64,000 bases of DNA from the NCBI RefSeq assembly GCF_011801145.1, contig NZ_CP046172.1:7006001-7070000 (forward strand), written 5' to 3'. A program made the position numbers and the translations under genes. Below the pieces are notes generated by a model, which was not told the origin of the DNA, did no database searches, and saw only the letters and a list, made by a program, of their open reading frames with translations. Below are positions 12,655 to 51,184 of this stretch, in pieces (positions within the stretch are counted from its first letter, which is position 1; each line of letters starts with the position of its first letter). The DNA is from Nocardia arthritidis (GTDB lineage: Bacteria; Actinomycetota; Actinomycetes; Mycobacteriales; Mycobacteriaceae).

Positions 12655-12718
12655 ATCAACAACATTCGTCCGTACCGCCGACGGATTTCGCGTGCCGCAT
12701 AGTTATGGGAGGGCCTCG

Positions 12719-15700
12719 ATGACTGCGCACACATCCGACACCACCGATCTACCGACCGAACAGCCCGACCGGTCCGACATTCAGGACTGGCTGATCACCG
12801 AACTGGCCGAGCGGCTCGGCAAACAGCCCGCGGAAGTGGATGTGCACACTCCGTTGACCGCGCTCGGCATCAGCTCCGTCGAGGTCGTCGAGCTGGCGAA
12901 CGCGCTGTCGGATTGGCTCGCGAAACCCGTTGCACCGGCTCTGATCTGGGATTACCCGACGGTCGCCGAACTGGCTCGGCAGCTGACCGAGGACGAATTC
13001 GCCTCGCCCCGAACCGATCACGCACAGGCCAACACGCTCGAGGAGCCGATTGCCATCGTCGGCATGGCCTGTCGCTTCCCCGGCGGCGTGAGCTCGCCCG
13101 AACAACTGTGGCAGCTGTTGAACGCGGGCGGCGACGCGATCTCGGAATTCCCCACCGACCGGGGCTGGGATCTGACCAGCCTCTTCGATGACGATCCGGA
13201 CCACCCGCGAACCTCCTACACCCGACAAGGTGGATTCCTGCACCAAGTCGCCGATTTCGACGCGGCATTCTTCGAAATGAGCCCGCGGGAGGCCCTCGCC
13301 ACCGATCCCCAACAGCGGCTGTTGCTGGAATTAGCCTGGGAGACATGTGAAAACGCGGGCATCGACCCGAACTCGCTGCGCGGCAGCAGCACCGGCGTAT
13401 ACGTCGGCATCAGCGCGCTCGAACATGCCGGTACTCTGTGGAATTCGCATGCGGCGCTGGTAGAAGGGCACCGAATTCCTGGCGGGCTCGGCAGCATTGT
13501 TTCGGGTCGGGTTGCCTACACCTTCGGCCTGGAGGGCCCTGCGATCACGATCGATACCGCCTGTTCCTCGTCGCTGGTCGCCCTGCATCTGGCACGGCAA
13601 GCGCTGCGCGACGGCGAGTGCCGGGCCGCATTCGTCGGTGGCGTTTCGGTCCTGACCACGCCGACGGCGTTCATCGAGATCTCGCGGCAGCGTGGTCTTT
13701 CGCCCGACGGGCGCTGCAAGGCCTTCGCCGCAGCCGCCGATGGTGTCGGATGGGCCGAGGGCGCGGGATTGATTCTGGTCGAACGACTCTCGGACGCTCA
13801 GCGGGCCGGACACCGCGTACTCGCCGTGGTCCGGGGATCCGCGGTGAATCAGGACGGTGCGTCCAACGGACTGTCGGCGCCCCGGGGTGTGGCCCAGCAG
13901 AAGGTGATCGGGCAGGCGCTGACGAGCGCGGGTATTCATCCGGACGAGGTCGACGTGGTGGAGGCCCACGGCACCGGAACCACGCTCGGCGATCCGATCG
14001 AGGCACAGGCGCTGCTCGCCACCTATGGTCGCAATCGCACCGCGGGCCCGCTGCTGGTCGGATCGATCAAATCGAATATCGGCCACACCCAGGCGGCTGC
14101 GGGCATCGCGGGCGTGCTGAAGATGGTGCTGGCGATGCGGCACGACCGGCTGCCGAAATCCCTGCACATCGATCGACCGACGCCGCACGTGGATTGGACA
14201 TCGGGAACGCTTGCCCTGCTGGACGACTCGCGACCGTGGCCGCGCAACCACCGGCCGCGCCGGGCGGGCGTGTCCTCGTTCGGCGTCAGCGGCACCAATG
14301 CGCACGTCATCCTCGAGGAGCCACCGTCGACGCCGCCGCGCCCCGCGACGGGGAGGACCGCCGCGATCCCGTGGCTGCTCTCGGCGAAAAGCCGTGCGGC
14401 ACTGCGTGCTCAGGCCGACCGGTTGGCGACGTGGGTGGAGGAGAACCCGGAGCCCACGGAAGACGAGATCGCCCGAACCTTGGCAACGGGCCGGGCGCGC
14501 CTCGACTACCGTGCGGCAGTGTTCGGCCCCGATCGGCATCGGCTGGTCGCCGAGCTGCGCGCACTCGCGCTGGGGGAACCGTCGGCCGATGTCGTGCAGG
14601 GCCGCGTCAGCCCTGGCGAAGTGGCCTTCGTATTCCCCGGACAGGGTTCGCAGTGGCCGGGTATGGCGGTTGAACTCCTCGACATCGCACCGGTTTTCGG
14701 CGACAAGGTCGCCCAGTGCGATGCGGCGTTCGCCGGCCTGCTCGACTTCCGGGTCGAGGATGTGCTGCGCGGGGCCGCGGGCGCTCCCGCACTCGAACGC
14801 ATCGAGGTTGTCCAACCGGTGCTCTTCGCGACGATGGTGGCGCTGGCCGAGCTGTGGCGGTCGTTCGGTGTGACGCCCAGCGCGGTGGTCGGCCACTCAC
14901 AGGGCGAGATCGCGGCCGCGCACGTGGCGGGCGCGTTGACGCTGCCGGACGCCGCGCGTGTGGTGGCCGTGCGCAGCAGGGTGCTCGCGACGGTGGCCGG
15001 TGTCGGCGGGATGGCATCGATCGCGTTGCCATTGGCCGAAATCACCAGGCGGATCGCTGAATTGGGCGACGGCATCTGGATCGCCGCGGTCAACGGACCG
15101 GCCGCGGTCGTGGTGACCGGAGCGATGGACCTGCTCGAGCAATTGGTGCAGGACTGTGCGGACGCCGGGGCCCGCACCCGCCTGCTCGGGCTCGGCGGCG
15201 CCGGGCATTCACCCGCGGTCGAGCCGGTGCGGGGACAACTGATCGCGGGCATCGCAGGCATCGAACCGCAGTCCTGCCCGATCCAGTTCTATTCGGCCAC
15301 GGCGGGCGGCCCGATCGACGGCGCCGAGCTCGACGCCGAGTATTGGTACCGCAACGCCAGGCACGCGGTCCACTTCGAACCTGCGGTCCGGTCCATGGTG
15401 CAGCGCGAATTTCGCACCTTCGTCGAGGTGAGCCCGCATCCGGTGCTGTCGTCCTCGGTGCAGCAGACCATCGATGACGATCCCACCCGCTACGCTGTCG
15501 TCGCCAGCCTGCGCCGCGGCGAGGGCGGGCTCGATCGGTTCGCGCGGTCGCTGGCGGCAGCCCATGTGCACGGCGTTGACGTCGATTGGCGTTCCACCGC
15601 CGGCGAACTCGTCACGTTGCCGACGTATGCCTTTCAGCGGCAACGGTTCTGGCTCCCCGCACCGCAAGATGCGGGGAACGAATCCGCGACGGCCGAGCTG

Positions 15701-18700
15701 GACACGCTCATACCGGCCAATGAACGAATGGCCGCGCTGACACCGCAGAGCGCGGCAGAACTCGTCAAGGCACAGGCCGCAGTGGTGCTCGGACATCATT
15801 CGAGCGCGTCGGTGGACGACCAGCTCACCCTCAAGGAACTCGGTTTCACCTCACTCACGGCGCTCGAGCTCCGCAATCGACTCGCCGCCGAATGCGGTGT
15901 CGCCATCGAAATGAGTTCGGTGCTCGGTGATCTCACCATCGAGGGCTTCTCCGAATACCTGGCCCGCCGGACCGGGTCAGGCGAACAGGCCGGGGCGATC
16001 GAGCAGGTTCGGCCCGATCCGGACAGCAGGCACGAACCCTTCCCACTGACCGAGATCCAGCAGGCCTATCTGATCGGCCGCGGACAGTCCTACGACCTCG
16101 GCGGCGTTGCGACGTATTTCTACGCCGAATTCGATATCCCGCAACTGGATCCGGACCGGCTACAGGAAGCGATCCGGCGCACCATCGCGCGCCACGACAT
16201 GCTCCGGGCGATCGTGCTGCCGGACGGAACCCAGCGCATTCTCGAACAGACCGAACCCTATGTGCTCAACGCCTCGGACCTTTCGGCCATGGACGGTGCG
16301 GAGGCGGACGACTTCCTCGCGGCGGTTCGAGCGGAGATGTCGCATCAGGTCCTGCCGACGGATCGGTGGCCGCTGTTCGATATCCGCTGTCACCGGCTCG
16401 CATCCGGCGCCTCCCGGGTTCATATCGGGATAGACCTGCTGATCGCCGATGGATACAGCATCTTCCTCCTGCTGCGCGACGGCGTCCGCGCGTATCTGGA
16501 CGCGTCGAATTTCGCTTCCGCACCGGGGATTTCGTTCCGTGACTATGTGCTGGCCCGGTCGCGGTTCGAGCATTCGGAGGCCTATGCCACGGCCCGGCAG
16601 TACTGGCAGAACCGGCTCGGGTCGTTGCCGCAGGCGCCCGATCTTCCGGTTTCCCGGCAGTCCACGCACGCCGGTCTGCGTTATCGGCGGCGGGAGATGT
16701 CGCTGGATCACGCTGCCTGGCAACGGTTCCGGGACCGAGCGCAGCAGTTCGGCGTCACCCCATCCGCCCTGGTGTGCACGGCATACGCCGAAATACTCGG
16801 CACCTGGAGCGAAAACCAGCACTTCACGCTGAATCTGACGCTCGGCGAACGCCTTCCGCTACATCCGGATGTCGCCGAACTGGTCGGAGACTTCACCTCC
16901 ACGCTACTGCTGGAGGTCGACTCTTGCGGCACGGACACCGTTGCCGAGAAGGCGCGGCGGCTGCATCGCCAGCTCACCCACGATCTGGACCACAGCAGGT
17001 ATCCAGGCGTCGCCGTCCAGCGGGACCTCGCCAGGGCCGCCGGTGCGCCGGTCGCGATGCCGGTCGTATTCACCAGTTTCATGGATATCCCACTCGGCGA
17101 ACGCGATATGGAGATGATCCGGCGCGGCTGGGACAGCCTGGTGTTCTCCGCCAGCCAGACGCCACAGGTGTACCTCGATCACGCCGCCATCGATATCGGC
17201 GACGGGCTGCTGCTCGCGTGGGAGACCCCGGACGAGCTGTTCCCAGACGGCGTGCTGGACGAAATGTTCGCCGCCTACCGGGATTTGCTGACGGCGATCG
17301 CCGACGGTGCCGACCGGCTGCCACGAACCTCGTTCGCCGCAAGCCAATTCGAACTGCGCGAGCGGGTGAACGACACCGCGGCTCCGATTCCGGACCACCT
17401 GCTCCACTCGGCGATCGCCGCCGTGGCGGCGGACCGGCCGGATGCGCCCGCCGTCATCGCGGCCGATTCGACGGTGTCCTACGGCGAGCTCGACCGCCGC
17501 GCGAACCAAATCGCCGGGCGGCTGCGTAATCTCGGCGCGCGGCCCGGCATGCTGGTGGCCGTCGTTATGACGAAGGGGTGGCAGCAGGTGGTGGCCACAC
17601 TCGGCGTCTTGCGTTCGGGCGCAGCGTATTTGCCGATCGATGCGAGCCTGCCGCGGCAGCGCGTGGACCGGCTGCTGGAGCTGGGCGAGATCGCGCTCGC
17701 GCTGACCCGAACCGCGGACGACGCGTCCATCGCGTGGCCGGATGACATCCGTCGCCTCGTCGTGGACGACGATTCCGCATGGGAAAACGTCGACGACTCC
17801 CCCATCGAGGAGGTCGCGGGACCGGAGGACGTGGCGTACGTGATCTTCACCTCCGGCTCCACCGGAGAACCGAAAGGCGTGACGATCCAGCACCGCGCGG
17901 TGGTCAACACCATTGCCGACTGCCTGGCCCGCTTCCGAATCACCGCTGACGACAGGGTCTTCGGATTGTCGTCGCTGAGCTTCGATCTATCGGTATTCGA
18001 TATCTTCGCCACCCTCGCGGCGGGCGCCGCCCTCGTGCTGCCGGAGCCGGCGGCTCTCCGCGATCCGACGCGATGGGCTGAAGCGATTCGGGCCCATGGG
18101 ATCTCGATCTGGAATTCGGTCCCCGCGCTGTTCGACCTGCTGATGGACTATGCCGCCGAACGTCCCGACGCACTCGGCCGATCGCTGCGCCTGGCGATGT
18201 TGAGCGGTGACTGGATCCCGGTCGAGCTTCCAGCCAGGGCGCGAAAGGTGGTGCCGGACATCGAGATCGCCGGTATGGGCGGTGCGACCGAGGCATCGAT
18301 CTGGTCGGTGCTGTACCCGATCGGCACCGTCGATCCGACATGGCCGAGCATCCCGTACGGAATGCCGATGGCGAATCAGACCCTGCACATTCTGGACGAG
18401 GATCTCGAGCCGCGCCCGGAATGGGTTCCCGGCGATCTGTACATCGGCGGTATCGGCCTGGCACACGGATATTGGCGGGATCCGCAGCGGACCGGCGAAC
18501 GGTTCCTTATACATCCGCGAACCGGCGAACGGTTGTACCGCACCGGAGATCGCGGCAGGTACCTGCCGGACGGGAATATCGAATTCCTCGGTCGGGTCGA
18601 TACTCAGATCAAGATCCGCGGCTTCCGCGTCGAACTCGGCGAGATCGAGGCGAATCTGTTGCGGCACCCGGACATCGGAGCGGCGGCGGTCACCGTCGAG

Positions 18701-20677
18701 GGCGATCGGCGCGGCGCCCGGCAGTTGGTCGCGTACTGCGTCGCCGATCGGGACGGGGTGGATCCGGACAGGCTCCACGAGTACCTCGGCGCGCGCCTCC
18801 CGGACTACATGGTGCCCGCGCACTACGTACTGCTCGACAGTATGCCGCTGTCCCCCAACGGGAAGATCGATCGTGGCAGGCTGCGCCGCGCCGAAGCCGA
18901 ACCGGCGGCGACGAGCATTCCGGCGGCCGGACGGCATGAGGTGGAGAACCTGCTGATCCGGATCTGGCGGGAGGTCCTCGCGGTCTCGGCGGTCGGCCGC
19001 GACGACGACCTGTTCCAGTTGGGCGGCGATTCGCTGCTGGCCATGCGGGTGGTCGCGAAGGCGCGGGCGGCGGGCTACCGGATCGACCCCGCGATCATAT
19101 TCCGCCGCGGAACCCTCGCGGAACTGGCGGCGACCGCGACTCCCGACGCGGGCGGCACGGCCGATCAGGCGCTGAGCGTCGGCGACGTCGAGCTCACGCC
19201 GAGCCAATTGTGGTTCCTGGAACACGATTTCGCCGATGCACAGCACTGGAACGGCTTCTGGCCTTTGATCTCGGTCCCCGAACCACTGGATCCGGCTATG
19301 CTGGAACAGGCTCTGTACCATGTCCTGCTCCACCACGACGCCCTCCGAGTGGCTCTGCACCGGGACGAAAATGGTTGGCGCGCAACGATCGCCGATGCGG
19401 CGGCGGCCGAGGACCCACCGTTCTCGGTGGTCGATCTCTCGGCGTTGCACGGACGCAGGCTCCGGGCCGCCATGGAAACGATGTGCACGGCGATACAGGG
19501 AAGCTTCCGGCTATCGAGGGCGCCGATGGTCAAACTCACCTACTTCGACCTCGGACCCGGCCGCGCGGGTCGGCTGCACCTCGCCACCCACTGGGCCGTC
19601 ATGGACTACTACTCGTCCCGGATCTTCTTCGAGGATCTCCGCTCGGCGTACGCGCAGCTGCGCGACGGCGAGGAGGTCGAATTACCACCCAAGACAACGT
19701 CATTGCAGACCTATGCGATGCGGTTGCGCGAACGCGCACAGGCCGAGGACCTGCGCGCCGAACTCCCGCTCTGGACCGACCCGGAGCGGGCCGAGGGCGC
19801 GTCGCTGCCCCGCGATTTCGAACACGGACCCAACGATCAGGCCTCCGCACGCCAGCTCGCCTTCATCTTCGGCCCGGAACTGACCGAGGCGGTCACCCAG
19901 ACCTTGCCGGTGCAGCTCGGGATCGACGTCACCGACGTGCTGTTGACCGCGGTGGGCCGGGCTGTGACCCGCTGGACCGGCGCGAGCTCGCTGCTGGTCG
20001 AGGTCGAGGGCCACGGCCGGGCCCAGGACATCGCCGGTGTCGACATCTCGCGCACGATCGGGCGGTGCTCCACGGTCACCCCGATGCATCTGCGGTTCGC
20101 CGCGGCGCAGGATCGGCGGGAGGCGCTGCGGTCGGTGGCGGAGCAGGTCCGACGCTATCCACGACAGGGCGCCGGGTACGGCATGCTGCGGTATCTGAGC
20201 ACGGATCCCGTTGTGCGCGAGGCACTTACCGCTGCCCCAGCGGCACAGGTCCGATTCAACTACTGGGGGCAGGCGAACGAATACCTCGCCGACGCCGTCT
20301 GGCCGTTCCAGGAATCCCCCGGCGTGCTGGTCAGCCCGCGCGGCCATCGGGAAACGGTGCTCGACGTATTCGGCGCGACGGTCGAGGGGCGGCTGATTCT
20401 CATCCTGGTGTACAGCGCGAATCTACACAGCCCGGTGACCATTCGAGCGGTCGGCGACTATCTCGCGGCGGAACTCGGTGCGCTGGTTGACGATTCGGAC
20501 GGCCGGGCCGATATCTACGCCCGGCCGACCGTCGTCCCGCTCACCGCGCATCCCGCGTCGCGGGCCATCGGACTCGTTTCCGGCGAGGCCCTGCGCCACG
20601 GAGCGAGACTGCGGCGCCGGGCCGGAGCGGCAATCGAACGGATCACCCGCGGCAGCGATCGAAAGGCAACATTGTGA
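12719..20677 (+). CDS. hybrid PKS-NRPS megasynthase (ACP-KS-AT-ACP-Cy-A-PCP-E*)
   Basis: 2652 residues. Domains, approximate positions: loading ACP with Ser53 (GISSVEVVEL); KS from 107 with Cys282 (DTACSSS), HGTGT and SNIGHT histidines; AT from 635 with Ser726 (GHSQGE) and the unusual specificity motif GAGH at 827-830; ACP with Ser1045 (GFTSLTALEL); heterocyclisation Cy domain from 1107 with the DxxxxDxxS motif DLLIADGYS at 1239; A domain with TSGSTGEPKGV near 1710; PCP Ser2105 (LGGDSLL); and a terminal epimerisation-like domain from about 2170. No KR, DH, ER, methyltransferase or thioesterase was seen. A-domain pocket residues read D-L-F-N-M-S-?-I-W (FDLSVF, WNSVP, MLSGDW, TEASIW), the cysteine type. 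The expected intermediate is a beta-keto acyl thiazoline. In the E-like domain the HHxxxD motif reads HWAVMD (2291-2296), so the catalytic His is Trp, while EGHGR (2430) is kept. The ATG at 12719 has GGGAGGG upstream. The stop overlaps the next gene's GTG. Confidence 0.92.
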   Translation: MTAHTSDTTDLPTEQPDRSDIQDWLITELAERLGKQPAEVDVHTPLTALGISSVEVVELANALSDWLAKPVAPALIWDYPTVAELARQLTEDEFASPRTDHAQANTLEEPIAIVGMACRFPGGVSSPEQLWQLLNAGGDAISEFPTDRGWDLTSLFDDDPDHPRTSYTRQGGFLHQVADFDAAFFEMSPREALATDPQQRLLLELAWETCENAGIDPNSLRGSSTGVYVGISALEHAGTLWNSHAALVEGHRIPGGLGSIVSGRVAYTFGLEGPAITIDTACSSSLVALHLARQALRDGECRAAFVGGVSVLTTPTAFIEISRQRGLSPDGRCKAFAAAADGVGWAEGAGLILVERLSDAQRAGHRVLAVVRGSAVNQDGASNGLSAPRGVAQQKVIGQALTSAGIHPDEVDVVEAHGTGTTLGDPIEAQALLATYGRNRTAGPLLVGSIKSNIGHTQAAAGIAGVLKMVLAMRHDRLPKSLHIDRPTPHVDWTSGTLALLDDSRPWPRNHRPRRAGVSSFGVSGTNAHVILEEPPSTPPRPATGRTAAIPWLLSAKSRAALRAQADRLATWVEENPEPTEDEIARTLATGRARLDYRAAVFGPDRHRLVAELRALALGEPSADVVQGRVSPGEVAFVFPGQGSQWPGMAVELLDIAPVFGDKVAQCDAAFAGLLDFRVEDVLRGAAGAPALERIEVVQPVLFATMVALAELWRSFGVTPSAVVGHSQGEIAAAHVAGALTLPDAARVVAVRSRVLATVAGVGGMASIALPLAEITRRIAELGDGIWIAAVNGPAAVVVTGAMDLLEQLVQDCADAGARTRLLGLGGAGHSPAVEPVRGQLIAGIAGIEPQSCPIQFYSATAGGPIDGAELDAEYWYRNARHAVHFEPAVRSMVQREFRTFVEVSPHPVLSSSVQQTIDDDPTRYAVVASLRRGEGGLDRFARSLAAAHVHGVDVDWRSTAGELVTLPTYAFQRQRFWLPAPQDAGNESATAELDTLIPANERMAALTPQSAAELVKAQAAVVLGHHSSASVDDQLTLKELGFTSLTALELRNRLAAECGVAIEMSSVLGDLTIEGFSEYLARRTGSGEQAGAIEQVRPDPDSRHEPFPLTEIQQAYLIGRGQSYDLGGVATYFYAEFDIPQLDPDRLQEAIRRTIARHDMLRAIVLPDGTQRILEQTEPYVLNASDLSAMDGAEADDFLAAVRAEMSHQVLPTDRWPLFDIRCHRLASGASRVHIGIDLLIADGYSIFLLLRDGVRAYLDASNFASAPGISFRDYVLARSRFEHSEAYATARQYWQNRLGSLPQAPDLPVSRQSTHAGLRYRRREMSLDHAAWQRFRDRAQQFGVTPSALVCTAYAEILGTWSENQHFTLNLTLGERLPLHPDVAELVGDFTSTLLLEVDSCGTDTVAEKARRLHRQLTHDLDHSRYPGVAVQRDLARAAGAPVAMPVVFTSFMDIPLGERDMEMIRRGWDSLVFSASQTPQVYLDHAAIDIGDGLLLAWETPDELFPDGVLDEMFAAYRDLLTAIADGADRLPRTSFAASQFELRERVNDTAAPIPDHLLHSAIAAVAADRPDAPAVIAADSTVSYGELDRRANQIAGRLRNLGARPGMLVAVVMTKGWQQVVATLGVLRSGAAYLPIDASLPRQRVDRLLELGEIALALTRTADDASIAWPDDIRRLVVDDDSAWENVDDSPIEEVAGPEDVAYVIFTSGSTGEPKGVTIQHRAVVNTIADCLARFRITADDRVFGLSSLSFDLSVFDIFATLAAGAALVLPEPAALRDPTRWAEAIRAHGISIWNSVPALFDLLMDYAAERPDALGRSLRLAMLSGDWIPVELPARARKVVPDIEIAGMGGATEASIWSVLYPIGTVDPTWPSIPYGMPMANQTLHILDEDLEPRPEWVPGDLYIGGIGLAHGYWRDPQRTGERFLIHPRTGERLYRTGDRGRYLPDGNIEFLGRVDTQIKIRGFRVELGEIEANLLRHPDIGAAAVTVEGDRRGARQLVAYCVADRDGVDPDRLHEYLGARLPDYMVPAHYVLLDSMPLSPNGKIDRGRLRRAEAEPAATSIPAAGRHEVENLLIRIWREVLAVSAVGRDDDLFQLGGDSLLAMRVVAKARAAGYRIDPAIIFRRGTLAELAATATPDAGGTADQALSVGDVELTPSQLWFLEHDFADAQHWNGFWPLISVPEPLDPAMLEQALYHVLLHHDALRVALHRDENGWRATIADAAAAEDPPFSVVDLSALHGRRLRAAMETMCTAIQGSFRLSRAPMVKLTYFDLGPGRAGRLHLATHWAVMDYYSSRIFFEDLRSAYAQLRDGEEVELPPKTTSLQTYAMRLRERAQAEDLRAELPLWTDPERAEGASLPRDFEHGPNDQASARQLAFIFGPELTEAVTQTLPVQLGIDVTDVLLTAVGRAVTRWTGASSLLVEVEGHGRAQDIAGVDISRTIGRCSTVTPMHLRFAAAQDRREALRSVAEQVRRYPRQGAGYGMLRYLSTDPVVREALTAAPAAQVRFNYWGQANEYLADAVWPFQESPGVLVSPRGHRETVLDVFGATVEGRLILILVYSANLHSPVTIRAVGDYLAAELGALVDDSDGRADIYARPTVVPLTAHPASRAIGLVSGEALRHGARLRRRAGAAIERITRGSDRKATL

Positions 20678-41362: not shown

Positions 41363-42256
41363 ATGACTGACGCGATTTCGGTCAGCGGTTTGGTCAAGAC
41401 ATTCGGCCACACCCGCGCCCTCGACGGACTCGACCTGCGAGTCCGCACCGGCGAGGTGCACGGCTTCCTCGGCCCGAACGGCGCGGGCAAGAGCACCACC
41501 CTGCGGATCCTGCTCGGACTGCTCCGTGCGGACGGGGGCGAGGCGCGGCTGCTCGGCGGCGATCCGTGGCGTGACGCCACCGCCCTGCACCGCAGGCTCG
41601 CGTACGTCCCGGGCGATGTCGCGCTGCCGCCATCGCTGTCCGGCGGCGAGATGATAGATCTGCTGCTGCAACTGCGCGGCGGCGCGAATCTCGTTCGGCG
41701 ACAACAACTCATCGAACGTTTCGACCTCGATCCGCGCACCAGGACCCGCGCCTATTCGAAGGGCAACCGACAGAAGGTCGCGTTGATCGCGGCGCTGGCC
41801 GCCGATGTCGAACTGCTGATCCTCGACGAACCGACCTCCGGCCTGGATCCCTTGATGGAGTCGGCATTCCGCGAAACCGTCAACGAGGAGCGGGCACACG
41901 GCCGCACCGTGCTGCTGTCCAGCCACATCCTGGCCGAGGTGGAGGCGCTGTGCGATCGGCTGACGCTCATCCGCGACGGCCGCACCGTCGACACCGGAAC
42001 ACTCGCCGAGCTGCGACACCTCTCGCGCACCGCTATCGAGGCCGAATTGACCGGCCCCGCAAGCGAACTCGCTGAGCTACCGGGAGTGCACGAACTGCGC
42101 GCAGTCGGCGATCGGGTCTGCTTCGAGGTCGACACCGAACTGCTCGATCCGGTATTGCGCACGCTCGCCGCGATCGGCGTCCGCAGCCTGGTGAGCAGGC
42201 CACCGACGTTGGAAGAGCTGTTCCTGCGGTACTACTCGTCGCATGCGGTGCGCTGA
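41363..42256 (+). CDS. ABC exporter ATP-binding protein
   Basis: 297-residue ATPase of the drug-export (DrrA/tetronasin-type) class. Walker [15 protein letters not shown], signature [15 protein letters not shown] (SKGNRQ in place of LSGGQ, typical of this subgroup), Walker [16 protein letters not shown] and the H-loop LLSSH are all intact. A C-terminal regulatory tail of about 80 residues follows. Its stop overlaps the permease start (ATGA-type, 42256), so they form one transporter. The ligand is unknown. The lasso locus starts 1.3 kb beyond the permease on the same strand, with a methyltransferase and a MerR gene between. Confidence 0.92.
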
Positions 42257-43848
42257 TGAACGCCGGAACACCGATCCTGTTGCGGGTGGCGCTGCGCCGA
42301 GAAGGCCGGATCGCGCCCTGGTGGATCCTGCTCATCGCAGGCGGCGCTCTGGTGATGATCGGCTATATCAACCGGAATATGGGCACGGCGGAGCTGAAAC
42401 TCACCTACACCACGATGATCAACCACAACGCATTCTTCCGCGCGCTCGGCGGCGGCACCGTCGAACCGGATCTGCCCATGCTCGCCGCCTGGCGCAGCGG
42501 TGGATTCCTTTATTTGGCAAGCGGTTTGGCCGCGGCGACCACCGTCATCCGGAACACCCGAGCCGCCGAGGATTCCGGCCAGGCCGAGCTGCTGCGCTCC
42601 GGCCCGATCGGACGCTTCGCGATATTGACCGCGGCACTGCTGGTTTCGGATGGTGTCGCGCTGCTCGCCGGTACGGCGACCACCCTCGTTCTGGTCGCCC
42701 GCGGCATGCCGGCCATCGGTTCGCTCGCATATGGCGCGGCGATCGCGGCGGCCGGGTTGGTCTTCGGCGCACTCGGAGCCGTCGCCGCCCAGCTGGCGCA
42801 AACCGCCCATACCGCAAGGGCTATCGCGCTTTCGGCGCTCGGACTCGCCTATGGCCTGCGCTACGCCGGTGACGCCACCGGCCGGCTGTGGCTGAAATAC
42901 GTATCCCCCATCGGCTGGAGTCATCTGGTCGACCCGTATCGCGCCGACCGGTGGTGGGCGCTGACACTGTCGTTGGCCGCGGCCGTCGCGCTGGCCGCTC
43001 TCGCCTATCGTCTCGCCGGACGACGCGATCTCGGCGCGGGTCTCGTCCCCGAAAGCCGTGGCCCCGCACGGGCTCCCGCACTCCGCGGCCCCATCAGCCT
43101 GTCGTGGCGGCTGCATCGCGGCTCGCTCGCGCGGTGGGCGGTCGGCATGACGATCTTCGCGGCGGGCGCGGGCGCGGCGAGCACCCTCGCGAATCAGTTG
43201 GCGAACGCACCATCTCCCGCGATCACCCGGCTGCTGGACGCGTTCGGCGCCTCGTCGACTTCCGTGCTGCGAGCCGCGCCGACGCCTATCGTGCTCATCT
43301 TCGGCTACGTCGTCGCGCTCTACCCGGTGCTGATGGTGCAGCACATGCGGCGCGCCGAGACCGCGGGCACCGCGGAACTACTCCAGGGCACTCCGATGAC
43401 CCGGCTCCGTTGGGCCGCAGGCCATCTCGCCGTCACTGCGGCGGGAACCGCGGGGCTGCTCACGGTCTCCGGGTTCGTGTTCGGCGCGATCTTCGCCGCC
43501 GTGGTGGGCGAGCCGCGCACGGAACTGCCGGATATCGCCGGTGAATCGCTGGCCGCCGTCCCCGCCGCGCTCCTGGTCGGCGCGATCTGCGCCTGCGCCT
43601 ACGGTCTCGCGCCGCGGTCGTGCGTGCCCATCGGCTGGATCACCTGGATCGCCGTCGTCGTACTCGGCCGCATCGTCGGACCGCTGTACGGCCTCTGGCA
43701 CGGAACGGTTTTCGAGCCATTCCACTACATCCCCGACATCGCCTCGGGCGCGGCGTGGCGGCCACTGCCGTTGCTGGTGCCGCTGGCCTGCACCGCGCTG
43801 CTGGTGACCGCGGGTCTGATCGGACTGAGCCGCCGCGACTTCGGCTGA
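42256..43848 (+). CDS. ABC exporter permease (tetronasin-resistance type)
   Basis: 530-residue polytopic membrane protein with about 12 hydrophobic segments in two similar halves. Each half begins with a cytoplasmic arm before the helices (LRVALRREGRIAPWW; SWRLHRGSLARWAVG), the duplicated layout of TnrB3-like permeases. Motifs such as ELLRSGPIGR and ELLQGTPMTRLRWAAGH recur once per half at matching positions, supporting an internal duplication. It works with the ATPase immediately upstream, whose stop overlaps its start. Probably an antibiotic or ionophore exporter under TetR control. Confidence 0.88.
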   Translation: MNAGTPILLRVALRREGRIAPWWILLIAGGALVMIGYINRNMGTAELKLTYTTMINHNAFFRALGGGTVEPDLPMLAAWRSGGFLYLASGLAAATTVIRNTRAAEDSGQAELLRSGPIGRFAILTAALLVSDGVALLAGTATTLVLVARGMPAIGSLAYGAAIAAAGLVFGALGAVAAQLAQTAHTARAIALSALGLAYGLRYAGDATGRLWLKYVSPIGWSHLVDPYRADRWWALTLSLAAAVALAALAYRLAGRRDLGAGLVPESRGPARAPALRGPISLSWRLHRGSLARWAVGMTIFAAGAGAASTLANQLANAPSPAITRLLDAFGASSTSVLRAAPTPIVLIFGYVVALYPVLMVQHMRRAETAGTAELLQGTPMTRLRWAAGHLAVTAAGTAGLLTVSGFVFGAIFAAVVGEPRTELPDIAGESLAAVPAALLVGAICACAYGLAPRSCVPIGWITWIAVVVLGRIVGPLYGLWHGTVFEPFHYIPDIASGAAWRPLPLLVPLACTALLVTAGLIGLSRRDFG

Positions 43849-45083: not shown

Positions 45084-45095
45084 GGGACCCCTCCC
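45084..45095 (+). promoter_or_regulatory. candidate lasso-regulon operator (copy 1, upstream of precursor)
   Basis: GGGACCCCTCCC followed by GAACCG, ending 53 bp before the precursor ATG. It differs at two central bases from the perfect palindrome GGGACCGGTCCC found upstream of the FHA gene and the cyclase, and is in the same orientation relative to its gene. The flanking CCCGAACCG also recurs at 51182-51190, there running in the opposite sense to its gene. Confidence 0.45.
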
Positions 45096-45148: not shown

Positions 45149-45301
45149 ATGAATGGCGAAACAGTCCAGGCCAAGCAGACATACGAGGCCCCGGCCATTG
45201 TCGAACTCGGGGATTTCAACACCGAAACGGCGATGAACACCTGGGGTAACCTCGCCGAAGTTCAGTACCCGTACGTGATTTCCTATCCTCCGAACAGCTG
45301 A
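45149..45301 (+). CDS. lasso peptide precursor (A), 50 aa
   Basis: Small gene with the strong ribosome binding site GGGAGG five bases before ATG 45149. The leader contains the lasso recognition motif Y12-x-x-P15-x-I17-x-x-x-G21-x-F23-x-x-x-T27 (YEAPAIVELGDFNTET), the YxxPxLxxxGxxxxxT pattern bound by RRE proteins, with Thr at the penultimate leader position. Cleavage after Ala28 leaves a 22-residue core beginning at Met29 (base 45233). Ring residues are MNTWGNLAE, so the N-terminal Met amine would close on Glu9 to give a 9-membered ring. The loop and tail are VQYPYVISYPPNS, with three tyrosines as possible steric plugs and a C-terminal Ser. No cysteines, so a class II lasso. Hand-calculated neutral monoisotopic mass of the cyclised core is about 2524.2 Da. 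B1 and B2 follow directly. Confidence 0.9.
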   Translation: MNGETVQAKQTYEAPAIVELGDFNTETAMNTWGNLAEVQYPYVISYPPNS

Positions 45302-45405
45302 GGGACTTCGTCGATCAGCTACCTGTGAACACGATTGCGAACACTCCGGGTTCTCCATGCGGGGAATCCGGAGTGCGCTGTACTTCAACACCTTCGGAGG
45401 CGTTC

Positions 45406-45663
45406 GTGAGCAGTGGCGCATTGAAGAAGAGCATTTCCTACGTCGATACCGAGTACGGGCGGGTCATGCTGGACGAGGCGAAAAGTCTTTACTGGCACGC
45501 CAATCCGACGGCGGCATTGCTACTGGACGTCCTCGAAGGCGGCGGCGACGCCGAGGAGGCGGCGCGGCGGATCGTCAGTAGGTTCGATATCGACGAGCGG
45601 ACCGCCATGGCCGATGTTCGCGGCGCGATCGACCAATTGCGCGAGCGGGGACTCCTGTCATGA
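45406..45663 (+). CDS. lasso peptide RRE protein (B1, PqqD-like)
   Basis: 85-residue PqqD-family RiPP recognition element. It binds the leader of the precursor and presents it to the peptidase and cyclase. Seen: ISYVDTEYGRVMLDEAKSLYWHANPTAALLLDVLEGGGDAEEAARRIVSRF, then a terminal helix ending LRERGLL, the B1 pattern (beta strands then helices). GTG 45406 is chosen because GGAGG lies five bases upstream and the length matches B1 proteins; the frame is open to GTG 45325 but the extra 27 residues are not B1-like. The stop overlaps the ATG of B2 (ATGA), so B1 and B2 are coupled. Confidence 0.9.
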   Translation: MSSGALKKSISYVDTEYGRVMLDEAKSLYWHANPTAALLLDVLEGGGDAEEAARRIVSRFDIDERTAMADVRGAIDQLRERGLLS

Positions 45664-46082
45664 GTTATGTCCTGCCAGAAGCCCCCGCGTACACGGGATT
45701 CGGCGGCAAGATCATCATGGCGCTCGCACTGACTTCGGCCAGGATCCTGAGTAAACAGTCACCGAATCGCCTTCGCGCCCTGCTCGGTAGGGTTGTCGCG
45801 ACGGCACCGCCGGCAAGCTACGAACAGGCTGCGCTCGCCCGTAATCAGATTCTGACGTTCAGTCCGCGTTGCCGTGCCCATAACGCCTGCCTGCCCCGGT
45901 CGATCGCCGTCTTGCTGGTGTGCCGGGCGCGGGGTGTCCGGCCGACGCTGTGCATTGGTGTCGTCGCCGCCCCGCCTTTCAGAGCGCACGCCTGGATCGA
46001 GGCCGACGGCGAGATCGTCGGCGAGCCGGTGGACAGTCGCTACTATCGGAAACTGTTCACCGTCCCGAAAACCCTGAACTGA
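45660..46082 (+). CDS. lasso peptide leader peptidase (B2, transglutaminase-like)
   Basis: 140-residue cysteine protease of the transglutaminase-like lasso B2 family, which cuts the leader after B1 delivers the precursor. The catalytic residues are recognisable: Cys77 in HNACLPRSIAVLLVCRARG, His110 in FRAHAWIEADG, and Asp116 just after it. The N-terminal 60 residues form the usual helical extension of free-standing B2 proteins. It overlaps B1 by four bases. Its last 40 bp overlap the 3' end of the cyclase gene on the other strand, so transcription of the two halves of the pathway collides here. Confidence 0.92.
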   Translation: MSYVLPEAPAYTGFGGKIIMALALTSARILSKQSPNRLRALLGRVVATAPPASYEQAALARNQILTFSPRCRAHNACLPRSIAVLLVCRARGVRPTLCIGVVAAPPFRAHAWIEADGEIVGEPVDSRYYRKLFTVPKTLN

Positions 46083-47869
46083 TCCCGATTTCTGATGAAC
46101 AGCGCGAGGTTCGTGAACTCGTTCATCAATGTATCCGGCAGTTCCATTCCCTTCGGGTTCACTGCCGCCGTGAACGCGGCCATATCGATCAGACCTGATT
46201 CGCTGAGGCCGGAGCTTTCGCACAAGGTCGATATATCGTGCCGGTGAGCGTTGAACCCCCGCATCACCTGTCCGGTTCCATCCGTTTTGGTGACTCTCCG
46301 GAGGAATTCGTCCGGTAGCAGACCACGCATGGCCTCTTTCATGAGCGGCTTCCATTCGACCGGGGTCACCCGCTCTTCCCGCCGCACCGACAGACAGGCT
46401 TCCACGACCCGATCGTCCAGCAGCGGCGCCTGATGGCTCACCCCGAACCGCGCACCCAACTGGGCGCTCCCCCGAACTACCCTTGCCGCGTCCCGTATCT
46501 CGGAAAGTTCATGGTGCTCAGCCCGATTCACTCCGAGGGGGTCCGCGTCACGCACGGCGCGCAGCATCGCCTCGCGCAACGCGTCCTTGGCGGCGGCCGA
46601 CAGCCAAGAGGGGAATCGGGGCGTCAGGGACCAGCCGCAAAGTCCGGGTGCCCGCCCGTCGAGCGCATCCTCGATACTTCTGGACAACCATGCCGCGTAA
46701 CCGCTTCGGTCGCACAGTGCGCGCAGCGTGGCCAGTGGTGAATGTCCCTCGGCGAGCTGCACGGCACGCGCGCGCTGCCAAGCGGACAGCGGTTTGCGGC
46801 GGAAGAGGGAATGCTCCCAGCTCGATGAGCCGCAGAACAATTGGTCTCCGCCGAGCCCGTTGAGATGAACTGCCACGCCACGCGCGCTGTCGTATCGGAG
46901 CTGATGTTCGATGCGCGGTGCGCACAACAGGCTCTGCGTCGGCTCATCGACACGATCGAGGATATCGAGCAATCCACCGTAGAAGTCCGGCATGTCGTTC
47001 GTCGACTCGACGACATGCTCACGCACACCCGGCATGACCGCCAACGCTTTACGTGCCCACAGGAGGTCCTGCCGACCGCCGGGATCGTCGTTGTAGCTGG
47101 TTTTCGCGATGACTCCGGACGGGCTCCGGGCAGCGAAGTAGCACAGCGGGGTCGAGTCCAGCCCACCGGAGAGATCGCAGGTGATGAGTCCGCCCACGGC
47201 TCGGGCCGCTGTCGCGTCCGCGAGGGCGGACCGCAATCGCGCCGCCCCCTCGGCGCGGGACAACACCGGATCCGGACGCCGCCACCAGGTCTTGGTCGCC
47301 CACCCGTGGCCGTCGGTCTCCACCACAAGGCAGTCGTCGGCGGCGACCGCGGTGATCCCGGACCACAACGGGACTTCCGAAAGCGGATACGGAAGGCCGC
47401 GCACCAGCCGCATCGCCACCGCGGTGTCGTTCGGCGGCAAACCCGCGAGTTCGGCGAGCATATCCATCCGATCGCTCAGCACGCGGACTCCGCACACGGC
47501 GGCGTGGTACACGCGGTGCACCCCGCTGGCCGAGCCCTGAGCGTAAACGCGACCCTCGAACGAGCCGACCACGTGGTAGGCGCCCGCGAAGCGGTTCGAC
47601 ACTTTCTCGAAATCCGGTATGCCGCGCGAACTTTCACATAACCGGCGGAGGTCTTCGGGTGTCGCCGTGGTAGCTCCCAGCAGGGCCAGGCGACGCCGTC
47701 CCTCGGCATGAACCGTCACTTGGTCCCGTGGCACCGTCCCGACAATCCACGGTCGACCGGAGGGATGCCTCACCAGGATCGGTATTCCACCGATCCTGGC
47801 CGTAACCCGTTGTGGCAGCGCACAATCCGGCATCACCAGGAAGAACGACGGAAGGGATTCTTTCAACAC
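46043..47869 (-). CDS. lasso cyclase (C, asparagine-synthetase homologue)
   Basis: About 608-residue lasso macrolactam synthetase. It adenylates the side-chain carboxylate (here Glu9 of the core) and closes the ring on the core's N-terminus. The N-terminal half resembles the glutaminase domain of AsnB but has no Cys at position 2, as usual for lasso C. The C-terminal half has the ATP pyrophosphatase loop CDLSGGLDSTPL (about residue 230), then NGLGGDQLFCGSS and FGVSHQAPLLDDRVVEACL. The GTG at 47869 (GGGGG upstream) gives a normal N-terminus, FFLVMPDC; a GTG at 47920 also opens the frame but abuts a long palindrome. It is convergent with, and separate from, the A-B1-B2 operon; the usual actinobacterial order is A-C-B1-B2 on one strand. 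Confidence 0.92.
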   Translation of the reverse strand: MLKESLPSFFLVMPDCALPQRVTARIGGIPILVRHPSGRPWIVGTVPRDQVTVHAEGRRRLALLGATTATPEDLRRLCESSRGIPDFEKVSNRFAGAYHVVGSFEGRVYAQGSASGVHRVYHAAVCGVRVLSDRMDMLAELAGLPPNDTAVAMRLVRGLPYPLSEVPLWSGITAVAADDCLVVETDGHGWATKTWWRRPDPVLSRAEGAARLRSALADATAARAVGGLITCDLSGGLDSTPLCYFAARSPSGVIAKTSYNDDPGGRQDLLWARKALAVMPGVREHVVESTNDMPDFYGGLLDILDRVDEPTQSLLCAPRIEHQLRYDSARGVAVHLNGLGGDQLFCGSSSWEHSLFRRKPLSAWQRARAVQLAEGHSPLATLRALCDRSGYAAWLSRSIEDALDGRAPGLCGWSLTPRFPSWLSAAAKDALREAMLRAVRDADPLGVNRAEHHELSEIRDAARVVRGSAQLGARFGVSHQAPLLDDRVVEACLSVRREERVTPVEWKPLMKEAMRGLLPDEFLRRVTKTDGTGQVMRGFNAHRHDISTLCESSGLSESGLIDMAAFTAAVNPKGMELPDTLMNEFTNLALFIRNRDQFRVFGTVNSFR

Positions 47870-47920: not shown

Positions 47921-47946
47921 ACGGTCCGGGACCGGTCCCGGACCGT
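47921..47946 (-). promoter_or_regulatory. 26-bp perfect palindrome upstream of lasso cyclase (motif copy 2)
   Basis: ACGGTCCGGGACC (47921-47933) and GGTCCCGGACCGT (47934-47946) form a perfect inverted repeat with no spacer. Its core GGGACCGGTCCC (47928-47939) is identical to the site upstream of the FHA gene. Read on the minus strand it begins at the FHA stop codon, is followed by a G/T-rich tract, and ends 51 bp before the cyclase start at 47869. It may be an operator, an attenuator/terminator of the FHA gene, or both. Confidence 0.7.
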
Positions 47947-48728
47947 CATTCGTCGCGAAATTCGAGCAGCCGTAGATCCGGTGGTATCAGGGTGGTGCTG
48001 TCGATGAGTTCGCGAATCAGGTTGTGGTTCAAGGTATTGCCGACCGGTTCACCTACCTCTTCGCGAGTCAGGCCCGCGACGCCCTTCGCGGACAGGCGGG
48101 CCCGGACCTTCTCGACAACGTGCTCGACACGTTTGGCGGTCCATCCGGCGTCGGGTTGTAGATCGTCGAGGTGAATGGCCGCCTGGCTCCACGCCATCGG
48201 CTGCGGATAGGCCTCCTGCAGCAGGTACCGCTGGGCGAGAACGATGAGCACCAGGCGCTCGGTATCGGAGAACCGCCACGTTCGCGGTGGATCGGTGGGG
48301 TCGGCGGGGCCGACACCGGTCCGGGACGTATCGGCGCCGGTCACATACAGTTCGAGGAGATGTTCGCGGCGGCCGGACCCGCGAATGAACATCGGGGTGT
48401 AGCCGGTGTCCAGGGGCAGCGGGTCCTCGCCGCCGAACAGCATGCGGGAGCCGGGTAGCCGAAGCGGTTGGCGTCCGAGATTGCGGACCCACCAACGATT
48501 CTCGTGATGGGTCAGCAGCCCCTGGCAGCGGCTGATCTTGCGGTCGTCGCCGCCGACGCATACGTCGACCTCGGGTCGATTGCGCCCGAACCGAATTCGT
48601 CGTCCCGGCGCGGGCCCGGTGGCGACTCCGCCGGTGAGCGCAAGCACGTAGATCGTGTGGGGAGCCGAGTCCGGCACGCCGAATGCCAAACCGCTGTCGT
48701 TCCCGGCCAGTTGCCGAAACTCGCTCAT
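47946..48728 (-). CDS. FHA-domain protein with C-terminal winged-helix-like region
   Basis: 260 residues. The N-terminal FHA phosphothreonine-binding fold covers about residues 25-115: IRFGRNRPEVDVCV with the core Gly48-Arg49, KISRCQGLL with Ser66-Arg67, and VRNLGRQPLRLPG with Asn83. The usual His after Ser-Arg is Gln. The C-terminal part (RFSDTERLVLIVLAQRYLL, then AAIHLDDL and WTAKRVEHVVEKVRARLSAKGV) looks like a winged-helix DNA-binding domain, as in EmbR-type regulators with the domain order reversed. ATG 48728 has GAGGAGG upstream. It lies between the Ser/Thr kinase and the lasso cyclase on the same strand, so I infer a kinase-responsive regulator of the lasso locus. Confidence 0.75.
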   Translation of the reverse strand: MSEFRQLAGNDSGLAFGVPDSAPHTIYVLALTGGVATGPAPGRRIRFGRNRPEVDVCVGGDDRKISRCQGLLTHHENRWWVRNLGRQPLRLPGSRMLFGGEDPLPLDTGYTPMFIRGSGRREHLLELYVTGADTSRTGVGPADPTDPPRTWRFSDTERLVLIVLAQRYLLQEAYPQPMAWSQAAIHLDDLQPDAGWTAKRVEHVVEKVRARLSAKGVAGLTREEVGEPVGNTLNHNLIRELIDSTTLIPPDLRLLEFRDE

Positions 48729-48775: not shown

Positions 48776-48787
48776 GGGACCGGTCCC
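48776..48787 (-). promoter_or_regulatory. candidate lasso-regulon operator (copy 3, upstream of FHA gene)
   Basis: Perfect 12-bp palindrome GGGACCGGTCCC, 47 bp before the FHA ATG and followed on the minus strand by GAATCA. Identical to the core of the 26-bp palindrome upstream of the cyclase. The gap between the kinase gene and the FHA gene (48729-48834) holds nothing else notable. Confidence 0.55.
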
Positions 48788-48834: not shown

Positions 48835-50613
48835 CTAATGGGCGGGCAGTTTCGCCGCGACAGCGGTCGCGATCGCGGTGGCGACCTGGCAGCGCCGCTC
48901 GGGCGGCTGCGGACCGGTGATCACCACGAGCGCGAGCTCGTATGCCTCGGCCGAATTACCGGTGGTGTAGGTGCGGTGCACGACGGTGACCTGACAGGTG
49001 CTGTCGCCGTAGCCGTCGGGCGCGACATACGCCTCATGTCCGGCGAGCGGTTCGGGTTGTCCATTACTGGTATTCACCTGGTCGTTTCGATCGAATCGCA
49101 CCAGCAGTGAGCCAGGGGTGGTGCTGCTGGTCCACCGGCATTCCCAGTTGCCGAATCCGATCTGCGGGCGCCTGGCCTCCACGCCCGGATACAGCGACAA
49201 CGACTCCGAGTCGAGCAGCGCGCAGGCATCGGTATGGAACAGCGATTCGGCGGGCGGCAGGGCGGTCCGTCGCGGCAGTGCACCGCGCGAGGCCACATCC
49301 ACGACGGTCGCGGTCGCCGCATCCGCGATCGCACACAGATCCATCGGCCCGGCACGCGCCCTGACGGCGCCAACGGCGATTTCGTATCGATCGGGCAGCA
49401 GTACGGTCCGCTCGCACTTGTTGTCTTGCGCGGGCAACCGCAGCACACCGATCTCGCCGACCGTCTCGACCCGCCCCGACGGGGGTTGCGGCGATGGATT
49501 CTGCAACTCGATCCGGGTATCGACCTTGCCGCCGCCCGGCAAGGTGAGAATCAGGTCGCAGCGGTTGAAATTGCCTCCGTCCGCGTCCTTTTCGACGTGA
49601 CCGCCGAACCGGTCGAATATCGTGGGGTCGGCCAGCATGCAGGGGTCGGCGGTGCGCGGGTCGCCCATCACCGTCGTCGGTTTCCTGATGGTTGCGTGCT
49701 GCGATCCTGCGAGCACGATCCAGACCGCGACGGCCACAGCGCAGAAAACCCCGGCGACGGCGAGCATGATGGTTTTCGAATGCCGGATATTCCGCGGCTG
49801 GGTTAGCAACGAAGGATGCGCGGCGGCCTCGGCGAGCCGGGTTCGTGCTTGGTCGGCCGTCGGCCGCCGGTCCGGATTGGTCCGCAACATGGCCGACAGG
49901 ACCGGTGTCAGTGCGCCGGCACGGCTGGGCGCGGAGATATCGCGCTGCGCGGTCCGCCGCATCAGCACCATCGGGTTATCGGAATCACCGAACGGCGAAT
50001 TCCCCTCTATCGCCGCGAACAGCGTTGCGCCCAAAGAGAATACGTCCGACGCCGGTCCCGGATCGGCCCCGTAGGCGACCTCCGGGGCCATATATCCGGG
50101 TGTTCCGGTGAACGCGCCGGTGCGGGTGAGCGTCGCGTCGGCGTACACGGCGCGAGAAACCCCGAAATCGCCGAGTTTGGCATGATCGTCATCGGTGACC
50201 AGAACGTTGCTCGGCTTGATGTCGCGGTGCAGGATGCCCGCCGCGTGCACCGCCGCCAAGGCGTGCGCGAGTTGCACACCGATGGTGGCCACCCGGCGCA
50301 GCGGTAGCGGGCCGAGTTCCCGAAGGCTGTGCCCGGGAACATATTCCATGACCAGCCACCACTGGCCATCGGCGCGGACGAGATCGAATACGGTGACGAT
50401 ATTCGGATGATTCAGCTGCGCGAGCAGTTTGGCCTCGCGCTCGAGGCGGCCTATCAGCTCGCCACCGTCGGAGCTGTCGGACACCAAGGCGTGCTTGAGA
50501 GCGACAACACGGTCCAGTTGCTCGTCGACCGCACACCAGACGACGCCGTGCGCACCGGAGCCGAGCTGCTCACTGAGCCGATAGCGATCGGTGATCAGCT
50601 GACCGACGCGCAC
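48835..50613 (-). CDS. transmembrane Ser/Thr protein kinase (Hanks type)
   Basis: About 592 residues. Kinase domain (residues 5-265): glycine loop LGSGAHGVV, catalytic Lys in VVALKHAL, HRDIKPSN loop, DFG in LGDFGVSR, activation segment TLTRTGAFTGTPGYMAPEV with several Thr for autophosphorylation. One transmembrane helix (about 280-303, TIMLAVAGVFCAVAVAVWIVLAG). The extracellular part of about 290 residues has two similar cysteine-containing segments (PCMLADPTIFDRFGG and ACALLDSESLSLYPG), recalling DUF3558-like envelope domains. GTG 50613 with GGAGGG upstream gives the standard kinase N-terminus; the frame is open to 50769. It senses something outside the cell and probably signals to the FHA protein encoded next to it. 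Confidence 0.88.
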   Translation of the reverse strand: MRVGQLITDRYRLSEQLGSGAHGVVWCAVDEQLDRVVALKHALVSDSSDGGELIGRLEREAKLLAQLNHPNIVTVFDLVRADGQWWLVMEYVPGHSLRELGPLPLRRVATIGVQLAHALAAVHAAGILHRDIKPSNVLVTDDDHAKLGDFGVSRAVYADATLTRTGAFTGTPGYMAPEVAYGADPGPASDVFSLGATLFAAIEGNSPFGDSDNPMVLMRRTAQRDISAPSRAGALTPVLSAMLRTNPDRRPTADQARTRLAEAAAHPSLLTQPRNIRHSKTIMLAVAGVFCAVAVAVWIVLAGSQHATIRKPTTVMGDPRTADPCMLADPTIFDRFGGHVEKDADGGNFNRCDLILTLPGGGKVDTRIELQNPSPQPPSGRVETVGEIGVLRLPAQDNKCERTVLLPDRYEIAVGAVRARAGPMDLCAIADAATATVVDVASRGALPRRTALPPAESLFHTDACALLDSESLSLYPGVEARRPQIGFGNWECRWTSSTTPGSLLVRFDRNDQVNTSNGQPEPLAGHEAYVAPDGYGDSTCQVTVVHRTYTTGNSAEAYELALVVITGPQPPERRCQVATAIATAVAAKLPAH

Positions 50614-50833
50614 CCGCCCTCCGTCCGACGCGAACTCGACAGTGCCCACCCTATGCCCGAACTCAGCGGTCAGAAAGGAAATCCGCCAAAGGAATTCGAG
50701 GCGGATCCCGGCGTCCGGCGAAAACCCGATGCCCATCCCCCTCTGGTGGGCATCGGTTACGCCACACACTCCAATTCCGACCCGATCACGGGCAAGAGGC
50801 GAGTATCACTGCCGCACAACGCCTCCGGAACGG

Positions 50834-51097
50834 CTAGTCCGTCTTCAACCGCCAGATCACTTCCCGGGTGAGCGGATTGATGTCGCAATACCATGTTCTC
50901 CCTTGAACATCGGCCAGTTGTCCGATGTGCGTGCACTCCGGGAAATCATCGTCGTCGGCGGGGCCCAGAAAATACGCCGCCCGCATCGTCACCGCTTGCG
51001 TCGATGCCGCGGCCGTCGACAGCCCCATGGCCGCCCCACCGCAGACAAGACCGAACACCGATAAACCTGTCAACACCGCCTTGGATCGAATATTCAT
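50834..51097 (-). CDS. small secreted protein, 87 aa
   Basis: Signal peptide MNIRSKAVLTGLSVFGLVCG with AMGLSTAAAS after it, cleaved near residue 31, leaves a mature protein of about 56 residues. It has an acidic patch (GPADDDDFPEC) and two cysteines (C-x15-C) that could form one disulphide. Family not recognised. ATG 51097 follows GGAGGG. It lies 220 bp upstream of the kinase on the same strand. Its own upstream region carries a variant of the motif found at the lasso genes, so it may belong to the same regulon; a role as the kinase's extracellular partner is a guess. Confidence 0.7.
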   Translation of the reverse strand: MNIRSKAVLTGLSVFGLVCGGAAMGLSTAAASTQAVTMRAAYFLGPADDDDFPECTHIGQLADVQGRTWYCDINPLTREVIWRLKTD

Positions 51098-51172: not shown

Positions 51173-51184
51173 GGGAGCGGTCCC
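51173..51184 (-). promoter_or_regulatory. candidate lasso-regulon operator (copy 4, upstream of small secreted gene)
   Basis: Read on the minus strand, GGGACCGCTCCC differs at one base from GGGACCGGTCCC. It lies 75 bp before the ATG at 51097, in the same orientation as the other copies. The + strand sequence continues CCCGAACCG, as upstream of the precursor gene. Confidence 0.42.

Follow-up and report, generated by a model that had tools for sequence, protein, structure and literature searches.

Lasso peptide precursors carry a leader with the motif Y..P...G.F, a threonine at position −2 and a glutamate or aspartate at core position 7-9. The closest described lasso clusters share four core genes with the locus reported here, namely the precursor gene A, the genes of the RRE protein B1 and the leader peptidase B2, and the cyclase gene C, as well as an inverted repeat separating A from the gene that follows it. 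Repeats of this kind after A are known from many lasso clusters, and the triggers of lasso peptides in native producers were largely unknown as of 2018 (PMC5974421, excerpts). Here, we analyzed a lasso locus within a 64,000-nucleotide stretch (the window; positions 7,006,001 to 7,070,000 of NZ_CP046172.1) of Nocardia arthritidis, whose genome is a single contig of 10,014,015 bp. In contrast to the closest described clusters, C follows B2 on the other strand and adjoins a pair of genes encoding a Ser/Thr protein kinase and an FHA-domain protein. Inverted repeats of the form GGGA-N4-TCCC (boxes) precede A, C and the FHA gene, and judging from these sequences a kinase-FHA pathway, acting through a helix-turn-helix (HTH)-like domain of the FHA protein, probably binds this repeat and switches both halves of the lasso locus together. 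The features are listed below by window position; percentages are identities to the Amycolatopsis homologue, and ORF denotes open reading frame.

45084..45095, unstranded: A-promoter box GGGACCCCTCCC, starting at −65 relative to the A start codon
45149..45301, + strand: lasso precursor A (leader model NF033521, 23.8 bits against a cut-off of 19; 70%)
45337..45378, + strand: RNA hairpin between A and B1 (z −4.99 in the window, −8.04 in Amycolatopsis locus L260)
45406..45663, + strand: B1, PqqD-like RRE protein (NF033530, 78.1 bits against 70; 72%)
45660..46082, + strand: B2, leader peptidase (NF033537, 94.5 bits against 33; 75%)
46043..47869, − strand: C, asparagine-synthetase-like lasso cyclase (PF00733, 105.5 bits against 21; 76%)
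47928..47939, unstranded: box GGGACCGGTCCC before C, starting 70 bp before GTG 47869, at the centre of a larger inverted repeat
47946..48728, − strand: FHA protein with a C-terminal HTH-like domain, predicted regulator (models and fold matches; Pfam FHA 19.9 bits against 20.7)
48776..48787, unstranded: box GGGACCGGTCCC upstream of the FHA start
48835..50769, − strand: Ser/Thr protein kinase, ORF from the earliest start (PF00069, 166.7 bits)
50834..51097, − strand: small protein whose N-terminus resembles a signal peptide (by reading), encoded ahead of the kinase in the same orientation; no Pfam family
51173..51184, unstranded: box GGGAGCGGTCCC, 76-87 bp upstream of the small gene

A complete lasso gene set in two facing units

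The sequence of the window contains a precursor, an RRE protein together with a leader peptidase, and an ATP-dependent macrolactam cyclase, i.e., the components that define a lasso cluster. The predicted core of A is MNTWGNLAEVQYPYVISYPPNS with a predicted ring M1-E9; the threonine at −2 and E9 expected of a lasso precursor are both present by reading, and the computed mass of the peptide, 2524.173 Da, agrees with the 2524.2 given in a first-pass annotation of this DNA; the core read for Amycolatopsis corresponds to 2208.09 Da. The SGG-DS motif of C is conserved and relatives of C sit in lasso loci, while all NCBIfam cyclase models scored below their cut-offs (the best, NF033561, reached 233.9 against 300). 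GTG 45406 and GTG 47869 are the preferred start codons of B1 and C, respectively. B2 and C meet tail to tail, their 3′ ends at 46082 and 46043 overlapping by 40 bp, and the arrangement of A, B1 and B2 on the + strand and C on the − strand was found at or near the places where the first-pass annotation had put it. Its remark that a dedicated transporter gene is lacking next to the lasso genes also holds for the window, and the hairpin between A and B1 is an ordinary feature of lasso clusters. Collectively, these data point to a full core lasso gene set, split into two facing units, with a lasso peptide as the likely product.

Of 150 genomes of the genus, 22 yielded a B2 hit and 21 a C hit at E ≤ 1e-20. 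We then placed C and B2 by tblastn in 110 loci plus the window; the sample comprised the genomic context of the 25 B2 hits beyond the window, 80 loci retained of 203 from a genome collection and 5 from another family. Both genes were placed in 104 loci (7 gave no hit for one of them), and they shared a strand in 102, among which there are at least two duplicates (L038 = L144, L263 = L147). The two loci with opposite strands are the window and L260 of an Amycolatopsis genome (G584). The closest relative of the window C is that of Amycolatopsis sp. CA-230715 (76% identity), and in the Amycolatopsis locus A, B1 and B2 (70, 72 and 75% identity) face C as they do in the window. The facing layout recurs in Amycolatopsis, and every other locus with both genes placed has them on one strand. 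Since the A-B1-B2/C split recurs at 70-76% protein identity, the layout stands above chance; it is real, rare among the sampled loci and conserved between just two distant genera.

In a tree of 70 C sequences, which contains long branches outside this pair, the window and Amycolatopsis C proteins form a pair (support 100/100) that is sister to a clade of 19 rows (98/95). The lasso loci of the sister clade, from Nocardia transvalensis, Saccharopolyspora soli, Streptomyces caeruleatus, Nonomuraea candida and others, hold the nearest cyclases by tree and search and have similar B1 and B2. Unlike in the window, C, B1 and B2 occupy one strand in the 12 distinct loci sampled from the clade, no GGGAN4TCCC lies within 140 bp of C, and two copies of A are present in four of the six loci (of the 12) in which A stands behind B2. 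Most likely, the facing layout arose once in the window-Amycolatopsis lineage or moved between the two families. There is a hint of lasso-gene transfer between these families, because the lasso proteins are 70-76% identical whereas the FHA proteins reach about 56-62%.

The same kind of box precedes both lasso units

The pattern GGGAN4TCCC occurs at six sites in the window, of which four lie upstream of A, C, the FHA gene and the small gene, about 48-87 bp ahead of the start codons, and two lie inside ORFs (33447 and 46807). The 12-mer GGGACCGGTCCC stands both in the FHA-C gap and in the kinase-FHA gap; it has three sites genome-wide against four for the reversed control, the third being apparently in a coding frame (by reading). 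In Amycolatopsis, the A box (GGGAGCCCTCCC) starts at −65, the same position as in the window, and the 12-mer GGGACCGGTCCC is found ahead of C and of two FHA genes of the same genome (L299, L302). Among the 107 lasso loci with enough sequence, only these two loci have GGGAN4TCCC within 140 bp before C. When the A and C promoters of the two genera are compared, conservation is good from near the box on and poor above it; for C, the DNA from the FHA stop onward aligns with the Amycolatopsis upstream DNA, and its well-conserved part begins near the shared 12-mer.

These comparisons bear on how C is controlled. The first-pass annotation had given C a promoter of its own, and the conservation of its upstream DNA supports this indirectly, as the gene preceding C in Amycolatopsis is an MFS gene and not an FHA gene. 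It had further proposed that C is controlled separately and that antisense transcription across the 40-bp overlap sets the B2/C ratio. The overlap is real, and a conserved upstream region of its own would suit an independent C, but we regard this explanation as highly improbable. Separate control is unsupported because a box of the kind seen before C also stands in the A promoter, at −65 in both genera. The overlap is not conserved, because in Amycolatopsis B2 and C are parted by genes for an esterase and, by reading, a TetR-like protein, leaving about 2.2 kb between the 3′ ends. C starts 76 bp past the stop codon of the co-oriented FHA gene, and the repeat before C folds into a hairpin, as would be expected if C had been relocated without regulatory meaning and were read through from the kinase-FHA genes, with the repeat serving just as an FHA terminator. 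However, the 12-mer also precedes the Amycolatopsis C, behind the MFS gene and with a less extended repeat, and the upstream DNA is conserved from near the box onward, which makes simple relocation improbable.

We therefore replace separate control with a predicted joint control through the shared operator. The kinase would sense a signal and phosphorylate a threonine, either its own or that of a partner; the FHA domain would read the phosphothreonine, and the HTH part would bind the repeat as a dimer. The position of the boxes some 48-87 bp before the start codons leads us to propose that the FHA-HTH regulator acts as an activator. The peptide would then be made, clipped by B1/B2 and closed by C, and the operator shared by both transcripts would keep the split cluster coordinated.

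The box accompanies the FHA gene across genomes

The Pfam FHA domain was recognized at E ≤ 1 in 13 of 18 relatives of the window protein, which itself also fold-matches FHA domains. Of 3018 candidates, 761 are homologues of this protein at E ≤ 0.001, and 23 of 150 genus genomes have matches. Within 140 bp upstream of 56 FHA-HTH genes drawn from the genus, the order and G584, we found GGGAN4TCCC (G type) before 38 and CGGAN4TCCG before 10, with either repeat before 47, compared with 17 of 665 control windows; the loose pattern was derived from the FHA loci themselves, so this is not a blind comparison. The exact 12-mer had been taken from the window in advance; it precedes the gene in 13 of 58 FHA rows, and its reverse does so in none (the set had been extended by 29 loci of 48 further matches). 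Across 41 genomes less G088 and G584, the exact 12-mer was commoner just in those with a G-type FHA gene.

A second, unrelated Nocardia lasso family with the core GSSYVIIEGYPSAWGSNY is present in four genomes (L053, L054, L055, L062), each with a box on the A promoter. In G074 and G145, the kinase-FHA pair adjoins the lasso genes; the box of the FHA gene is CGGACCGGTCCG, and that of A, in the region that A and the divergent kinase gene have in common, is CGGACCCCTCCG. In G144 and G135, where the pair lies about 3.5 Mb off and on another contig, respectively, the FHA box is of the G type and the A box is GGGACCCCTCCC. In this family, the variant of the A box is thus the variant before the FHA gene of the same genome; further FHA-like hits in G144 and G145 (L117, L116) are without a box. 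Over all loci, 129 A-like ORFs were found in 104 loci, and 10 of them have a box, L147 and L263 being one locus. Within the genus, with G131 (a weak FHA fragment) scored as lacking FHA, boxes precede five of eight A-like ORFs in FHA-bearing genomes and 1 of 15 in the others (Fisher 0.009, a guide only, as the genomes are related).

Several observations weigh against control by the FHA protein. Lasso A genes without a box occur in FHA-bearing genomes (L047, L048, L050, L261, L264), and L051, a lasso A gene from a genome lacking FHA, shows a repeat-like match. In addition, G136 has six exact 12-mers against none for the control, although an FHA relative was not found there; none of the six lies in its lasso locus. 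This last case would suit a box that is bound by another transcription factor, or by a special sigma factor as a promoter element, with that factor controlling the kinase-FHA and lasso genes and the FHA protein being one of the targets. Many FHA proteins do not bind DNA, the HTH assignment comes from fold only (a Foldseek search with the HTH-like domain alone gave no significant match), and binding of the FHA protein to the box is predicted. We nevertheless consider another binder unlikely, since the box tracks the FHA gene across genera, the exact 12-mer is enriched just where the FHA gene is of the G type, and the box type in the second lasso family equals that of the genome's FHA gene even when the two are not adjacent. 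Co-variation of the recognition helix with the box type was also seen, but it is confounded by clade and was set aside.

Returning to control by the kinase and its FHA-HTH partner, we give roughly even chances to a broader proposal, in which this pathway and GGGA-N4-TCCC constitute a lasso switch in Nocardia and Amycolatopsis that serves at least two unrelated families, in cis and in trans. Operator and regulator specificity would have changed together (G to C at the outer base), and because each transcript carries the operator, the cluster could break into two facing units and move from family to family as a portable module that plugs into a resident regulator.

Boxes were also seen in other settings. 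G040 (L125, L335-L339) has 15 exact GGGACCGGTCCC sites against 3 of the reversed control, and a larger regulon is possible there; in six stretches of this genome, 11 of 13 exact 12-mers lie outside the ORFs of a crude gene picker, and few targets could be named. In G129 (L122, 6724-11340), the order of box, small gene, kinase, box, FHA and box matches that of the window, with a 477-amino-acid gene where the window has C. In G584 (C1:8044900-8047548, L302-L303), the start of a gene resembling those of nonribosomal peptide synthetases (by reading) adjoins a box-bearing kinase-FHA pair.

Second lasso cluster and neighboring genes

A complete cluster elsewhere in the genome, with the window C serving another pathway, would have spoken against the first-pass annotation. 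A second C-B1-B2 set on one strand with an A-like ORF (VTVKKQKYDKPVLIDRGSFRKDTGNLRRGIPEPIIVVPLGK) in front does exist (G000:C1:2954401-2956923, L048), but it has a C of its own, 34-35% identical to the window C, and has no need of the latter. The window C belongs with the window A-B1-B2, because the Amycolatopsis locus pairs the same C and A-B1-B2. GGGAN4TCCC was absent from the 16-kb stretch of the second cluster.

The kinase-FHA pair is not a lasso-specific neighbor, as among the lasso loci it stands beside lasso genes just in G000 (the genome of the window), G074 and G145. The C-terminal part of the kinase gave a weak DUF3558 match (30.4 bits, below the cut-off of 34.1), and the small protein before the kinase had no relative among the sampled loci. 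Further upstream, the + strand encodes an ABC ATPase and a membrane protein (41363-43848), with methyltransferase and MerR genes intervening; we found no evidence for this pair as the exporter. The MerR, methyltransferase, TetR and ABC genes are likewise unsupported as cluster members, the surroundings of the Amycolatopsis locus showing just a 45% MerR match over 29 residues. A 2661-amino-acid ORF on the + strand (12692-20677) perhaps encodes a megasynthase.

Comparison with known FHA regulators

An operator predicted to be common to a kinase-linked regulator and two lasso families would allow a direct test of lasso control, and it supplies a pattern by which silent clusters with this control could be found. 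Our search of the open PMC literature, seen in part and with subscription papers and preprints outside it, yielded neither a GGGA-N4-TCCC operator nor a lasso cluster regulated by an FHA protein. Proteins that combine FHA with an HTH domain (FHA+LuxR) are listed for Nocardia farcinica and Rhodococcus, but in contrast to our prediction for the window, the text parts consulted give no operator, kinase partner or target (PMC3466318). Another parallel is the PknH-EmbR pair of Mycobacterium tuberculosis, in which a Ser/Thr kinase likewise acts on an FHA-containing transcription factor (PMC4601284, excerpts). By models, the EmbR order of an OmpR-type DNA-binding domain, BTA and FHA is not matched by the window protein, and the predicted targets of the latter are lasso genes. 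The window FHA protein is not a member of the EmbR family, because its FHA domain is N-terminal and its HTH-like domain C-terminal, but it may work in a similar way.
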